Below are positions 49,194 through 55,629 of a stretch of 64,000 bases of DNA, one piece after another. The stretch is from NCBI RefSeq assembly GCF_026013615.1, contig NZ_JAPDPI010000019.1:1-64000 (forward strand), written 5' to 3'. The notes under the pieces were generated by a model. That model did not search any database. It worked only from the letters and a program-made list of their open reading frames with translations, and was not told the DNA's origin. The position numbers and the translations under genes are program-made. Each line of letters starts with the position of its first letter. Position 1 is the stretch's first letter. This DNA is from Plebeiibacterium marinum (GTDB taxonomy: Bacteria; Bacteroidota; Bacteroidia; Bacteroidales; Marinilabiliaceae).

Positions 49194-49674
49194 ACTATCA
49201 GTTTTAAAGTAACCCCTTCTAATTCACCCCTATATCCCCTGAAGGGGACTTTGCCCCTTCCCGGAACCAAAACTTTTACAGCACGTAATAACAAAGCTGT
49301 AAATCAGAAGCCCCTTTAGGGGTTTGGGGTAGTGCAAGCTGTAAATAATTTTGAGAAACTATCAATTTTAAAGCATAACCCCTTCTAATTCACCCCTATA
49401 TCCCCTGAAGGGGACTTTGCCCCTTCCCGGAACCAAAACTTTTACAGCACATAATAACAAAGCTGTAAATCAAAAGCCCTTTAGGGTTTGGGGTAGTGCA
49501 AGCTGTAACTAATTTTGAGAAACTTTCAATTTTAAAGTAACCCCTTCTAATTTACCCCTATATTCCCTGAAGGGGACTTTGCTTCTTCTCGAAACCAAAA
49601 CTTGTACCACTCATAATAACAAAGCTGTAAATCAAAAGCCCCTTTAGGGGTTTGGGGTAGTGCAAGCTGTAAAT
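49194..49674 (+). repeat. Three tandem 164-bp hairpin repeats left of the DUF559 gene
   Basis: Units start at 49194, 49358 and 49522 (period exactly 164 bp); the third lacks its last dozen bases. Each contains CCCCTGAAGGGG, an 8-bp dyad TTTACAGC/GCTGTAAA (lost in unit 3) and GCCCCTTTAGGGGTTTGGGG. In unit 2 the last dyad is one base shorter on both arms (CCCTTTAGGG), a compensating change that argues for a selected stem. Orientation is opposite to the nuclease gene that follows. Confidence 0.9.
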
Positions 49675-49709
49675 CCAGGATCATACACTGATAAAAACTT
49701 TAAATCATT

Positions 49710-50114
49710 CTAATCAATTGTATATCCCATTTCAGATTCTCTTTCTTTTATTGCCTTCCGAATTTTTAATATTACATTTTCCAACAGCTCCATTACTTCT
49801 TTATTTGTAAACCTTAAAATTCTAATACCATAAAACTGCATTTCATGTTCCCTGCCACTGTCATACTCTTTCTGTCCTATATGAATCTTCCCATCAACTT
49901 CTATTACTAGCTTTAAACTATGACAATAAAAATCAGCAATAAATATATCTATAGGATGTTGTGCTCTAAATCGGTAGCCTCCCACCTTTTTATTCTTCAA
50001 TTCATCCCATAACAGTTTTTCTGCTGAAGTCATATTCTTTCTTAAAAATTTGGCTTTTTCAAAGATTATAGGCTTTGCCCCATAAAACATATTTCTTTCT
50101 ATAGTATCAGACAT
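49710..50114 (-). CDS. DUF559 (Vsr-like) endonuclease domain protein
   Basis: 134 residues, the full family length. It has the DUF559 pattern: FLRKNMTSAEKLLWDELK, then FRAQHPIDIFIADFYCHSLK and the PD-(D/E)XK-like active site with Asp61, Glu72, Asp74 and His78 (VIEVDGKIH). The fold is related to Vsr mismatch endonucleases and restriction nucleases. The gene is embedded in an array of about 165-bp hairpin repeats on both sides. Such genes occur scattered in Bacteroidota; their function is unknown, and a repeat-linked mobility role is possible. Confidence 0.85.
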   Translation of the reverse strand: MSDTIERNMFYGAKPIIFEKAKFLRKNMTSAEKLLWDELKNKKVGGYRFRAQHPIDIFIADFYCHSLKLVIEVDGKIHIGQKEYDSGREHEMQFYGIRILRFTNKEVMELLENVILKIRKAIKERESEMGYTID

Positions 50115-51171
50115 AAAGACTTAGAATTTATTATCTATCAAAATCTAATTTAAAGGATATTATCTGGACGCTAGTACAAATTCTAAACTAAAAATATAAT
50201 GTTGGCATATTTCTACCCCTGTATCCCCAAAACAGAAGGTGTCAAAGCAGATAAATAATTTTGAGAAACAATCAGTTTTAAAGCATACCCCCTTCTAATT
50301 TACCCCTATATCCCCTGAAGGGGACTTTGCTTCTTCTCGAAACCAAAACTTGTACCACTCATAATAACAAAGCTGTAAATTAGAAGCCCCTTCAGGGGTT
50401 TGGGGTAGAGCAAGCTGTGAGTAATTTTGAGAAACAATCAGTTTTAAAGCATACCCCCTTCTAATTCACCCCTATATCCCCTGAAGGGGACTTTGCCCCT
50501 TCCCGGAACCAAAACTTTTACACACATAATAACAAAGCTGTAAATCAGAAGCCCCTATAAGGGTTTGGGGTAGAGCAAGCTGTAAATAATTTAGAGAAAC
50601 TTCCAATTTTAAAGTAACCCCTCTTCATTAAAAGAGTTTTTACACTCCCTGTAACGCCATATGTGTTCTAAAAACCTATCGGTATAGTGTAAGTGTAGTT
50701 TAAAAGTAGTTATTAATTAACCATGAAAATTTATATTGTAAATATTTATACATGGACAAATAGGCATTAAATCAGGCTTTAATGTGTTGTTGACTTGTGT
50801 TGTGTTGATAAATATAATTCGTTATCTGAAACCTATAATAATTTTAAACGTACCTTAGGGTGCGCAATTAACTTTGTATAATTGTGATATTAATTTCACA
50901 GATTAGGTTTATAATTTAGTGTGGTATGGGAAGAGTTATTTTTTTCTGTGCCGCACTTTTATTGGATAAATAAATCGTGGCTATGGATAAAAGGGTTGTG
51001 AGTAACAAAGGATATACTTTACCACTCGCTTTTGCATGCCAAAATGGTATATGTAGTGAATTGGTTTAAGTATGTTATAATTTAAATATAAATGTAGTTC
51101 GGTTTAACCAGATGTTGTGCGGCGTTGTATGAAACTGAGTTGCAAATAAGAAAGTATATAGATTTTAGAGA
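50115..51171. other. Intergenic stretch: repeats, then AT-rich DNA
   Basis: The first 510 bp hold the right-hand repeat copies (separate entry). From 50640 to 51171 no gene is seen. Notable items are a 16-bp look-alike of the IS66 right end (51016-51031) and TTGTGCGGCGTTGTATG at 51115, a phrase similar to CGTTGTATG before the next orphan gene. Confidence 0.35.
50212..50626 (+). repeat. Right-hand copies of the hairpin repeat
   Basis: A decayed partial unit (50212-50267) is followed by two full units at 50268 (166 bp) and 50434 (165 bp) and a truncated start at 50599. They have the same orientation as the left array. Dyads: CCCCTGAAGGGG in both; CCCCTTCAGGGG in the first, and CCCCTATAAGGG in the second. 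Confidence 0.88.
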
Positions 51172-52059
51172 ATGGAATTGATTCAACCAGCAGAGATTTC
51201 TGGAAAAATAATGACATTGTTTGACCAAGCGAAAGAGGAGATAATTATTGTTTCACCCTATAATAAATTCACATATTGGAAAAAACTGACCCAAAGGATT
51301 GAAAAAGCAAAACAAAGGGGAGTAAAGATAAAGTGGTATATACGCAAGAACGTGGATAATAATGTGGAACAAATTCGTCAAATTGGTATTGAGCCAATAG
51401 AGATTGATAATTTGCATTGTAAACTATACTTAAATGAACAACATGCGGTTGTTACCTCAATGAATTTGCATGAATATTCGGACACTTCCTCTATCGACAT
51501 TGGATACTATATTACAGAAGAGGATAAATACAAAGAGTTGACAGATTTTATTGACGTTTACATTGATAGTTGTTATGTCACCGAGAGTAAGGGAATTGAA
51601 GCAATCAATAGAGAATCGGCAACAAAAAAAGTGGATTTCATTGACTCTTTAGTTACTTTTCTGCTCGAAATGGGATTTGAAAAAGGAAATTTAAAGACTA
51701 ATGAAAACAGATATGGAACAGTAGTAACGATTAATGAGTTTATGGAAAATTTCGAATTAATTCTTGAGCCTAAAGGAGTTTATTATCGCATTGACCTAAG
51801 AATTAATTATCCCTACAAGATTAAAAATGCCATATATGAATTTTTAAGATCTAATGAAAATGTATTAAATCGATTGATTGGTTTTGAAATTGATTTTGGT
51901 CGACAAATGAAACGGCTTAAATTAGACTTGGAGATTTTTGAAAATTACGAGTATGAAAACTGGGACAATGATGAATTTGAAAAATTGAAACCAATACTGA
52001 TTAACTTGATAAAAGTATATAAAAGTCAAATAAACAATGCTATACAGCTATATGTATAA
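51172..52059 (+). CDS. PLD-like (HKD) protein with unknown C-terminal domain
   Basis: 295 residues. Residues 1-125 form a single phospholipase-D-like unit: EEIIIVSPYNKFTYWKKL, VKIKWYIRK and LHCKLYLNEQHAVVTSMNL with His82, Lys84 and Asn98. One HKD per chain implies a dimer, as in Nuc-type nucleases. Residues 150-295 are not recognised. Single-HKD proteins with extra domains include nucleases and phage-defence proteins. It is isolated by AT-rich gaps in accessory DNA. Confidence 0.7.
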   Translation: MELIQPAEISGKIMTLFDQAKEEIIIVSPYNKFTYWKKLTQRIEKAKQRGVKIKWYIRKNVDNNVEQIRQIGIEPIEIDNLHCKLYLNEQHAVVTSMNLHEYSDTSSIDIGYYITEEDKYKELTDFIDVYIDSCYVTESKGIEAINRESATKKVDFIDSLVTFLLEMGFEKGNLKTNENRYGTVVTINEFMENFELILEPKGVYYRIDLRINYPYKIKNAIYEFLRSNENVLNRLIGFEIDFGRQMKRLKLDLEIFENYEYENWDNDEFEKLKPILINLIKVYKSQINNAIQLYV

Positions 52060-53207: not shown

Positions 53208-53570
53208 ATGCTAAACGAAAATAAATTCAGAGAGATTTACGAAGGTTTTGTTACATCCGGATTAACAGCAAAAGATTACTGTAGCAACCTGGGGTTGGCA
53301 GAAGGTACATTTTATTACTGGCAAAATAAATTGAAAAACACCTTGCCACCTAAAAACGGATTTGTACCTGTAGTACTGAAAACTGAAAGAAATGAAGCTT
53401 CAATTTCGGATAATAGAAAAAAGCAGTACCTGATTAATTCAAAACAATCACCGGAACATATAAATAAAACAGGTTTATTGGAAATTTGCTATCCAAATGG
53501 AGTCCGGGTAAGACTAGATAATGGTGCTGATCTAGAAACATTACGTTCATTGATAGAGTTAATTCATTAA
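53208..53570 (+). CDS. tnpA: IS66 TnpA accessory protein
   Basis: 120 residues. The N-terminus is a helix-turn-helix of the kind seen in IS66 OrfA (FVTSGLTAKDYCSNLGLAEG, then TFYYWQNK). The end, LEICYPNGVRVRLDNGADL, is also typical of this protein. It is needed with TnpB for efficient transposition. First of three genes, starting 73 bp from the left IS end. Confidence 0.85.
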   Translation: MLNENKFREIYEGFVTSGLTAKDYCSNLGLAEGTFYYWQNKLKNTLPPKNGFVPVVLKTERNEASISDNRKKQYLINSKQSPEHINKTGLLEICYPNGVRVRLDNGADLETLRSLIELIH

Positions 53571-53572
53571 AA

Positions 53573-53932
53573 ATGTTTAGTCTTACTTCATCAATGAATT
53601 ATTATCTGTATGCCTATCCTACAGATATGCGTAGAAGTTTTTATACGCTAAGCGGAATGATTACAAATCAGATGGGCAGGAATGTTCAGGACGGGGATGT
53701 GTTTATCTTTATAAATCGGAATTGTACAAGCATGAAAATTCTGCATATGGAATGTGGAGGATTAGTCATTTACCACATGAAACTGGAATCAGGATCCTTT
53801 AAACTCCCTTTTATGGATGAAAACAGTAATACATTACAAGTTAATTGGCAGGATTTAATGAGCATTGTACAAGGTTCTCCTACAGTGGCAAAACCAAATA
53901 AAAAGAGTTGGAAAAAACCTGAAAAACAATAA
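53573..53932 (+). CDS. tnpB: IS66 TnpB (Orf2) protein
   Basis: 119 residues. It matches IS66 Orf2: YAYPTDMRRSFYTLSGMI, DGDVFIFINRNCTSMKILHM in family terms (D...FvF.nR....kiL). The family's basic tail appears as NKKSWKKPEKQ. It starts 2 bp after tnpA. The biochemical role is not known but it is required for mobility of the family. Confidence 0.88.
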   Translation: MFSLTSSMNYYLYAYPTDMRRSFYTLSGMITNQMGRNVQDGDVFIFINRNCTSMKILHMECGGLVIYHMKLESGSFKLPFMDENSNTLQVNWQDLMSIVQGSPTVAKPNKKSWKKPEKQ

Positions 53933-54003
53933 TTATCATACTGTTATTTTCTTCCGTATATCGCTGAATTTAAGTATATTTACAGTGCTTACAAAAAGAA
54001 GAA

Positions 54004-55629
54004 ATGACAAACGAAGAAGAGGCTTTTTTACAACAACTTTTGCTTGAACGAGATGAGTTTTACAGGGAGACATCCAGGCTAAAAGGCCAGATTGCTGACC
54101 TAAAAAACTTTGCGGAAGAAAAAAGCTCTTTTCAACAACAAATAGGCGAAAAAGACCAGCTTATCCATAAGCTGCAGCAACAAATACAGTGGCTTCAACG
54201 AAAAGTTTGGGGGAAATCGAGTGAAAAATATATCAAAGAAGATCCCTTACAAAGAAAGCTTGATTTTGATGGAGTCGATTTACTACCTGAGGAGAAAGAT
54301 CTTGCAACAACAGCAAAGGAAGAGATAGAACAGTACAAATTAAAACGAGTTGTTGTAAAAGAAAAGAAGCATCCGGTTAGAAAACCTCTTCCGGAAGGCC
54401 TTCCAAGGGAAGAATGCCATATATATCCCGAACATATTGACTATAAGAATTGCGTTGAACTTGCTCCTGAAATCACTGAGATTTTAGAAAAAAATCCGGC
54501 CAGATATTATGTACGAAGAATCATCCGTCATAAATATGTCTTAAAAGCAGATACCGGCAATGAACAAAATACTGTTGTTACTGCCCCTATGCCAGCTTTA
54601 CCAATAGCTAAAAGTTATGCAGGTTCTTCAATATTAGCTGATCTTATCATTAATAAATATGTATATCACCTTCCTCTTTATCGTCAGCTTCAAATGCTTA
54701 AACAAGAAGGCTTATTCATTCCGGCATCCACAGTTAATGATTGGATACCGGGTGTAGCAGATTTAATGCGTCCTGCATATTATAGATTAATGGAATTGAT
54801 TCTAAAATCCGGTTATGTTCAAAGTGATGAGACAACCATCCCGATTGTCAATGATGAAAAGCACAAAACAGTAAAAGGATATATCTGGATGTTACGTGCA
54901 GTGATACCTAAACTAGTCCTGTTTTATTATGATCAGGGTTCTCGTGCACAAAAGGTCGCATTGCATCTGTTTAAAGATTACCAAGGTGTTATCCAAACGG
55001 ATGGCTATGCAGTCTATGATATATACGAAAATAAGAAGGGAGTATTGCCTATTGGTTGCTGGGCACATGCCAGAAGGAAGTTTGAAGAGGCTTTAAAAGA
55101 AGATAAGGCTAGGGCTTCTTATGCCTTGGAACAAATAGGTCTGCTTTATGATGTGGAAAGACAGGCTGATCAGGAAAATCTTTCGGATGAGCAACGTGCA
55201 GACTTACGTACTCGTTTGGCATATCCAATTATGGTAGCTTTTGAAAAATGGTTAGTACAGGAGTGTCCTAAGGTACTACCTAAAGGAAGGATTGGAAAAG
55301 CGATTGGATATACCTACAACATATATCACAAATTAACCCGTTATCATCTGGATGGAAGATATAAATTAGATAATAACCTCGCTGAAAACGCAATTAGACC
55401 TATCGCCTTGGGCAGAAAGAATTGGTTGTTTTGTGGAAATCATGAAGCAGCAGAAAATGCAGCTATTATATACTCTATGCTTGGTTGTTGTAAAGCTTGT
55501 GATATCAACTTTAGAGACTGGCTTATCTATTTTCTGAATAATGTGCATGACTATGATAATGATTACACAAAAGATCTGGCAGAACTTCTTCCGCACAATT
55601 TTAAACCTAATGCTGATAAAGCAAATTAA
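54004..55629 (+). CDS. tnpC: IS66 transposase (TnpC)
   Basis: 541 residues. N-terminal coiled coil (residues 1-75), a Zn-finger-like region reduced to remnants around 135-150, then the DDE domain: VQSDETTIPI, GVIQTDGYAVYD and the final NLAENAIRPIALGRKNW with the catalytic Glu; GCWAHARRKFEEA is present between. The IS66 C-terminal helix (SMLGCCKACDINFRDWL) is intact. It should be active. Confidence 0.93.
   Translation: MTNEEEAFLQQLLLERDEFYRETSRLKGQIADLKNFAEEKSSFQQQIGEKDQLIHKLQQQIQWLQRKVWGKSSEKYIKEDPLQRKLDFDGVDLLPEEKDLATTAKEEIEQYKLKRVVVKEKKHPVRKPLPEGLPREECHIYPEHIDYKNCVELAPEITEILEKNPARYYVRRIIRHKYVLKADTGNEQNTVVTAPMPALPIAKSYAGSSILADLIINKYVYHLPLYRQLQMLKQEGLFIPASTVNDWIPGVADLMRPAYYRLMELILKSGYVQSDETTIPIVNDEKHKTVKGYIWMLRAVIPKLVLFYYDQGSRAQKVALHLFKDYQGVIQTDGYAVYDIYENKKGVLPIGCWAHARRKFEEALKEDKARASYALEQIGLLYDVERQADQENLSDEQRADLRTRLAYPIMVAFEKWLVQECPKVLPKGRIGKAIGYTYNIYHKLTRYHLDGRYKLDNNLAENAIRPIALGRKNWLFCGNHEAAENAAIIYSMLGCCKACDINFRDWLIYFLNNVHDYDNDYTKDLAELLPHNFKPNADKAN

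Follow-up and report, generated by a model that had tools for sequence, protein, structure and literature searches.

A DUF559 nuclease gene between paired tag-and-hairpin repeats in Plebeiibacterium marinum: a candidate one-gene mobile element

Elements of the IS200/IS605 type are short and carry hairpins near both ends. For REP sequences and their RAYT enzymes, enzyme and repeat are said to coevolve (Quentin et al, 2018; PMC6006769). In Escherichia coli the BoxC/PIT motif has been described as an intrastrand triplex motif; MG1655 contains 23 copies, each of the five inverted pairs among them combines type A with type B, and such motifs have been linked to instability (Holder et al, 2015; PMC4666352). 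The BoxC/PIT/triplex-motif repeats first came to notice in E. coli in the 1990s, and many bacteria are reported to contain them in abundance. Spread through repair of a break is a known mode of homing, and the homing endonuclease I-Bth0305I forms a dimer on a target almost 60 bp long (PMC3943268). As for the DUF559 domain, the Caulobacter DUF559 protein VsrA has been proposed to be a VSP repair enzyme (PMC12907096), DUF559 segments adjoining a transposase are among putative recombination hotspots of Legionella, for which the authors themselves call for confirmation (PMC12308824), and a cyanobacterial genome paper assigned a DUF559 gene to the EDxHD homing endonuclease family (PMC9403480). In titles, abstracts and passages of the mainly open-access literature, we found no report linking DUF559 to palindromic or triplex repeats.

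The window analysed here, a 64,000-nucleotide stretch of the P. marinum genome, contains a small DUF559 gene inside an array of hairpin repeats (Table 1). The original prediction had named the enzyme a Vsr-like nuclease rather than a Y1 transposase, and this identification stands: the sole Pfam match of the gene is PF04480. An alignment of 38 proteins (the window protein and 37 relatives) contained 26 invariant columns, including H78 and D61, E72 and D74, the last three of which we take to be the residues expected of an active PD-(D/E)XK site. The predicted structure (pLDDT 82.6) was nearest in Foldseek to 3HRL, a DUF559 protein, and then to the catalytic domain of I-Bth0305I (3R3P), the latter with moderate scores (E 1.5e-3 and 2.5e-3, TM 0.59 and 0.65 by target); mitoribosomal proteins followed more weakly. 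A profile search returned the same two entries, with E 8.7e-4 for 3R3P. DUF559 also occurs inside open frames of ~1080-1320 aa (L021-L025, L029, L032), and around the domain in these frames no shared repeats were found within 1.5 kb, which is mostly coding.

Table 1. Coordinates of the nuclease gene and the repeat features of the window.
Feature	Position	Strand	Basis
DUF559 / PD-(D/E)XK (Vsr-like) nuclease gene, 134 aa	49710..50114	-	PF04480, 109.8 bits
Repeat unit 1 (core), LE..RE in gene orientation	49210..49345	-	
Repeat unit 2 (core); LE hairpin one base shorter per arm	49376..49509	-	
Repeat unit 3 (core); RE hairpin with one base changed	49537..49673	-	
RE-like end remnant (CTACCCCTGTATCCCC, plus strand), immediately upstream of the gene	50213..50240	-	by eye
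Inter-unit spacer copy from the array (fragment)	50252..50284	-	repeat family D5
Repeat unit 4 (core)	50285..50421	-	
Repeat unit 5 (core); LE hairpin partly decayed	50451..50586	-	
Beginning of a further unit (fragment)	50587..50626	-	repeat families D5 and D6
Unit 1 RE-type half: tag, 5-nt linker, hairpin; plus strand CCCC-TATAT-CCCCTGAAGGGG	49227..49247	-	
Other RE-type halves	49393-49413, 49555-49575 (one change), 50303-50323, 50469-50489	-	
Unit 1 LE-type half: tag, 3-nt linker, hairpin; minus strand CCCC-AAA-CCCCTAAAGGGG	49311..49329	-	
Other LE-type halves	49477-49493, 49639-49657, 50387-50405	-	

The gene is bracketed by direct repeats that are spaced 162-166 bp apart within each side and share a single orientation. 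The predicted layout was borne out, with three units to the left (~49194-49674), two units plus fragments to the right (50252-50626) and the gene on the minus strand, opposite to the repeats as they had been described. Each unit carries two short hairpins, CCCCTGAAGGGG and CCCCTTTAGGGG, altered in units 2, 3, 4 and 5, and a third dyad (TTTACAGC..GCTGTAAA) is found in units 1 and 2, in agreement with the two or three dyads per unit that had been described. The halves of a unit are unequal, having the linkers AAA and TATAT, and read from LE to RE along the strand of the gene. With its gene between whole units, plus an RE remnant, the window copy is an array-type locus. The second hairpin of unit 2 has indeed lost one base from each arm (CCCTTTAGGG), which had been read as a sign of selection on the fold; in unit 5 the stem of the second hairpin is instead partly lost, which leaves the paired loss as a single example. 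The folding energies of the five units, expressed as z against dinucleotide shuffles, were -1.88, -1.91, -1.23, -2.56 and +0.31 for units 1-5, only mildly better than the shuffles or not better at all. Single-unit folding energy was consequently dropped as evidence for structure (z -2.56 to +0.31), and the case for selection on structure is made by comparison between loci. An Rfam search of the window matched no family. Next to the array lie a PLD-like gene (51172-52059; a weak DrmC match, below the cut-off) and a gene trio (53208-55629) that we take to be IS66-like; synteny with the relatives G007 and G004 is lost in this region.

Association of such repeats with stand-alone DUF559 genes was analysed in two sets of loci, the first consisting of 80 fetched from 504 confirmed DUF559 relatives in GTDB genomes and the second drawn from the P. 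marinum genome (G000) and 60 relatives. A repeat was counted as shared when the 500-bp flanks matched each other by blastn at E <= 1e-4. In the first set, repeats common to both flanks were present at 54 of the 70 testable DUF559 loci (direct at 47, inverted at 14), compared with 1 of 30 control genes, namely other ORFs of the same loci (Fisher p 1e-12). In the second set 17 of 19 stand-alone DUF559 genes had them, both P. marinum genes included, compared with none of 23 HNH genes (7 more untestable; p 7e-10) and 11 of 28 Y1 transposase genes (2 more untestable; p 7e-4). The counts of the two sets (16/70 and 2/19 loci without shared repeats) are partly dependent, as L018/L109 and L030/L047 are the same loci in both and other pairs are orthologous. 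The DUF559 input of the second set was 26 loci, made up of the 19 stand-alone genes and 7 fused ones that lay outside the 1.5-kb-flank test; L017, L033, L042 and L044-L046 were left out as fused, edge or partial, and some further DUF559 places yielded no locus.

The hairpins themselves were scored by a signature, a pyrimidine 5′ arm ending in CT. Around 89 DUF559 loci, out to 400 bp, such pyrimidine-arm hairpins reached 2.82/kb, 28 times the 0.100/kb in the distal parts of those loci; reversed sequence gave 0.028/kb. At least one was present in 63/89 loci and both sides carried one in 42/89, and none was found at the 23 HNH or the 28 Y1 loci. A common source with the REP sequences of RAYTs was considered and rejected, because the hairpins of the latter, viewed at 10 of the 11 positive Y1 loci, are of another kind. 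On viral contigs, where 80 of 119 relatives were kept (a few of them near-identical), shared repeats were present at 19 of 69 testable DUF559 loci and the hairpin signature at 0.073/kb. Plasmid records with a DUF559 match numbered 38, from which 13 loci were fetched. By eye, halves or units flank the gene on both sides in Picosynechococcus (L370, L375), Pseudanabaena (L373) and Deinococcus (L372, L379), with the TAAAT linker again in the three cyanobacterial loci, and a similar motif lies on only one side, within ~200 bp, in Azospirillum (L371, L382), Synechocystis (L374, L376), Photobacterium (L377) and Sinorhizobium (L381). Of the remaining plasmid loci, L378 encodes a fused protein and L380 was left out.

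Across loci the ends share a common anatomy. A half-unit is built of a hairpin joined to a C/G-run tag by a short linker, and units are inverted pairs of such ends. At 27 of 88 loci one such pair directly encloses the gene, with one half 16-81 nt ahead of the point where the gene match begins and the other, inverted, close to where it ends; an LE-gene-RE locus of this kind is an IS-like element of ~0.5 kb. The alternative layout is a gene between whole units, as in the window. Among these 27 loci the linkers are 3 nt on the left and 5 nt on the right in 17 (nearly always AAA and TAAAT) and 2 and 5 nt in three more. A 5-nt linker is combined with one of 2-3 nt in 34 of at least 74 gene-less units, and unequal linkers are not universal. 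A first, cruder scan of the nearest halves over 45 loci gave R..F in 14, F..R in 7 and a mixed arrangement (R,R or F,F) in 24. Where the arms are heterogeneous, the tag mirrors the hairpin arm at no fewer than 6 of 7 positions in 79/153 entries versus 36/153 for a direct copy, entries that come from at most 23 loci with each hairpin entered on both strands. The mean score of the mirror tag was 5.22, compared with 4.64 for other arms (highest of 200 draws, 4.75). Such a mirror tag matches the layout of an intrastrand triplex. In the window, C-arm, loop, G-arm, loop and mirror G-arm follow one another on one strand (CCCC-TTTA-GGGG-TTT-GGGG), with stems of 4 C/G pairs and one T-A pair; type B loci have longer hairpins.

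Hairpin form follows the enzyme. Four types, set up after the hairpins had been seen, were distributed over 88 loci as 52 A, 9 B, 3 C and 12 D, with 12 loci having none. When mapped onto a tree of the 88 DUF559 proteins, the types required 4 changes, the minimum being 3, compared with a mean of 22.8 after shuffling; none of 200 shuffles was as low. Between families, protein identity and repeat similarity were correlated (rho 0.48, 1545 pairs; highest of 300 permutations 0.21) in a Mantel test that defined ‘different family’ by a mix of NCBI names and group codes that are not matchable. Labilibaculum, Carboxylicivirga and Marinifilum each contain genes of two clades, and every gene has the hairpin type of its own clade. 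Both types are present in the single genome of Labilibaculum NORP351, type B at L089 and type A at L096. Together, the association, the recurrent ends and the match of type to clade are hard to explain by chance or by simple hitchhiking.

Copies of the repeat are not confined to the nuclease gene. A BLAST search of the P. marinum assembly (5.62 Mb, 187 contigs) with the unit gave 14 matches. Five lie in the window, and the nine others are all shorter (24-137 bp) and mostly decayed. Half-unit motifs were found beside the window gene in 7 of 47 cases; with an even spread, 0.04 would be expected no more than 1 kb from either stand-alone DUF559 gene of this genome, although tandem copies are not independent. 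The expectation that copies would be more frequent near DUF559 genes than elsewhere was therefore upheld only in part, since the other 40 of the 47 lie elsewhere and some motif-rich genomes have no DUF559 match. The second stand-alone gene (C116:30571-30879; L016 ~1001-2350) has hairpin units on both flanks, in an array that differs from that of the window in having ~215-bp units with ACCCCCATCCC / GGGATGGGGGT ends. Among the relatives, G035 and G025 have 176 and 56 pattern matches, respectively (overlaps counted), without any DUF559 match. Of 21 genomes with a stand-alone DUF559 gene, 12 contained the motif, as did 16 of 40 others (Fisher p 0.28; tallied by eye from two tables); the 40 include 8 whose only DUF559 matches were partial or weak and 3 in which DUF559 occurs only in fused proteins. 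Presence of the motif and presence of DUF559 are thus uncorrelated across the 61 genomes, although absence of DUF559 from motif-bearing genomes is uncertain because some contigs terminate in arrays. When the ORF lists of the G035 arrays were inspected by eye, no other resident enzyme was recognised; some of the contigs stop in or just past an array. The many motif copies far from DUF559 genes, or in genomes without one, argue against strict dependence.

P. marinum also contains dispersed MITE-like units of ~170 bp, with GCAAGAAAACT-like terminal inverted repeats and an LE/RE-like pair mid-unit (L225, L244, L245, L255, L256, L258-L260, L262-L264, L267-L269), located away from both stand-alone DUF559 genes. 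In several units (L244, L255, L262, L263, L269 and also L066) the right hairpin is interrupted by a different palindromic repeat (GAGCYTGTCCCGA..CGGGAG), inserted near CCCCTTTA^GGGG. Some of the MITE-like units may have been moved by another enzyme.

These observations bear on a model in which a Y1 or DDE transposase acting in trans, or replication slippage, moves or destabilises the repeats, and DUF559 genes merely land among them. Motif copies without DUF559 and the MITE-like units with terminal inverted repeats are what such a model expects, Y1 genes are present in several copy-rich genomes (G000, G025, G035, G049; G022, with 15 copies, has none), and Holder et al tie triplex motifs to instability (PMC4666352). 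We nevertheless consider it unlikely: HNH genes were never found between such repeats (0/23), pyrimidine-arm hairpins were absent from all 28 Y1 loci, hairpin type tracks the DUF559 tree even inside one genus, and the LE-gene-RE geometry recurs across genera.

Several comparisons suggest that the gene and its ends move together. The same gene block was found in unrelated flanks at three pairs of loci: L077/L078 (titled Bacteroidales and Vicingaceae), 81% over ~417 bp; L056/L059, 87% over 511 bp; and L087/L113, 82% over ~420 bp. In genome G031 a gene and its array occupy 1.70 kb between two conserved blocks, the left of which aligns at only 68% over 217 bp with that of the congener G013, where the junction is 417 bp long, lacks a DUF559 ORF and shows, by eye, no unit of this kind. 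In Deinococcus NW-56 a segment of ~520 bp with the gene lies between an oxidoreductase gene and hpaE; the same junction is contiguous in D. proteolyticus, which has a homologous 421-bp block (79%) beside hpaB instead. The comparison of orthologous loci proposed in the original prediction thus yielded two conserved junctions at which one genome has the element and another lacks it. The window locus itself gave no clean comparison: G007 and G004 keep the DUF4914 and HTH-cupin genes up to ~49043, but the right side does not align. At the site of L028, G031 carries a run of N, and for the C116 locus no member of the genus aligned to both sides of the array on one contig. The E. coli gene ycjD was tried as an empty/occupied pair and rejected as a simple insertion, because other genes adjoin sapF (SMI1/KNR4 in one, efflux/MFS genes in two) in three of the genomes outside the 3333 of 5426 E. 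coli genomes in which a place covered at least 80% of a fabI-ycjD-sapF query.

Sixteen of 108 loci scanned lie downstream of permease genes on the same strand (L052, L054, L055, L058, L060, L061, L064, L065, L068, L070, L071, L074-L076, L086, L122), which from their C-terminal motif we take to be of the FtsX type, and in 9 of them a second copy of the permease 3′ end lies beyond the element. When 8 of these second copies were tested, three matched the left copy of their own locus at 95-96%, compared with a mean of 73-77% to the others; one tied for best and four were closer to other loci. Target duplication at insertion is thus not general, because the right-hand copy is clearly locus-specific in only 3/8 loci. 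The ~57-bp FtsX copies are reminiscent, and no more than that, of the length of the I-Bth0305I target. They also bear on single-strand transposition of the IS200/IS605 kind, in which the nuclease would excise and insert LE-gene-RE as a transposase does, without host recombination. The LE-gene-RE layout, the unequal hairpins near the ends and the presence of the element at new junctions would suit such a process; we regard it as quite improbable, as flanking direct copies of the FtsX 3′ end resemble repair more, and PD-(D/E)XK hydrolases form no covalent intermediate with which to rejoin strands.

We propose instead that DUF559 genes and hairpin repeats make up one kind of minimal mobile element, and that the nuclease probably drives its spread by cutting combined with host repair. 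In this model the two ends are unequal, LE having a 3-nt and RE a 5-nt linker between the C/G-run tag and a pyrimidine/purine hairpin that could alternatively fold as an intrastrand triplex, and units of 130-170 bp would be gene-less satellites built from both ends. The PD-(D/E)XK nuclease most likely recognises the ends and cuts or nicks there or at the target, and the break would be repaired through host recombination from another copy, thereby copying the gene between repeats and enlarging tandem arrays, as homing endonucleases do. What the comparison of loci shows is the association, the end anatomy, the match of type to clade and the presence or absence of the element at two conserved junctions; the action of the nuclease on the ends, the repair of breaks by recombination and the origin of the arrays by this route are inferred.

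A mismatch-repair (VSP-like) enzyme or local regulator, with the hairpins as operators or terminators, is a very unlikely alternative to this model of cutting and repair. The LE hairpins, 16-81 nt ahead of the gene match, do occupy a position where an operator might be, and VsrA of Caulobacter has been proposed as a VSP repair enzyme (PMC12907096). However, arrays, gene-less units, presence and absence at junctions and differing sites would all be left unaccounted for. A wider form of the proposal, which we advance tentatively and hold to be somewhat doubtful, is that DUF559 nucleases might constitute a separate, bacteria-wide class of one-gene mobile elements with triplex-motif ends, that the BoxC/PIT/TM repeats of E. 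coli, cyanobacteria and others might be their satellites, and that the nuclease might read the triplex or hairpin form. A matched nuclease would offer a testable origin for the previously unexplained BoxC/PIT/triplex-motif repeats, a function for the large ‘unknown function’ domain DUF559, and an example in which enzyme and repeat coevolve with no classical transposase involved.

Compared with known systems, the elements share with IS200/IS605 a short length, hairpins near both ends and a single gene, and differ in having no Y1 transposase TnpA. With the homing endonuclease I-Bth0305I (EDxHD) they share a likeness of fold in the catalytic domain and of profile (3R3P), and with homing endonuclease genes in general the flanking copies of a target-like repeat. 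Free-standing homing endonuclease genes differ in that here there is no intron, intein or single allelic site, only a candidate target. To our knowledge, repeats and satellites are absent from known homing elements.

The likeness to REP sequences and their RAYT, with which the original prediction had compared the layout, holds in part. As in REP/BIME systems with TnpA_REP, a single small enzyme gene lies between paired, inverted tag-and-hairpin repeats, with satellites elsewhere, and the comparison supports a partnership (17/19 against 0/23 for HNH, the 28-fold hairpin density, the tracking of type with clade, the differing sites). It fails for the enzyme, a PD-(D/E)XK hydrolase and not an HuH/Y1 protein (PF01797), and the Y1 loci of relatives bear other hairpins. 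As for a GTAG-type tag, which in REP sequences usually lies 5′ of the hairpin, window units do end in GGGGTAG, but on the strand that reads so the tag follows the hairpin on its 3′ side.

The triplex motifs TM_ECO, BoxC and PIT resemble the repeats described here in being intergenic and in consisting of a tag and a pyrimidine/purine hairpin (PMC4666352). Their layout of C-arm, loop, G-arm, loop and mirror G-arm on one strand is found in the window, although the window hairpins, with 4 C/G pairs, fall short of the 6-15 nt stem of the ITxF search and hence of its 6-nt minimum (PMC4666352). That paper describes no mobility gene at its E. coli sites, and the terms endonuclease, Vsr and ycjD do not occur in its main text (PMC4666352). 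Motif no. 9 of Holder et al (1,351,204-1,351,239) and ycjD, the DUF559 gene of E. coli (1,351,407-1,351,760), are 168 bp apart; by eye, the gene has a full motif on one side only. A 71-bp query around motif no. 9 was found in 5375 of 5426 E. coli genomes, with a median of 16 places in each (range 1 to 29). Triplex motifs are reported to be abundant in E. coli and cyanobacteria, and their two versions pair as inverted repeats, just as LE pairs with RE in the elements described here (PMC4666352).
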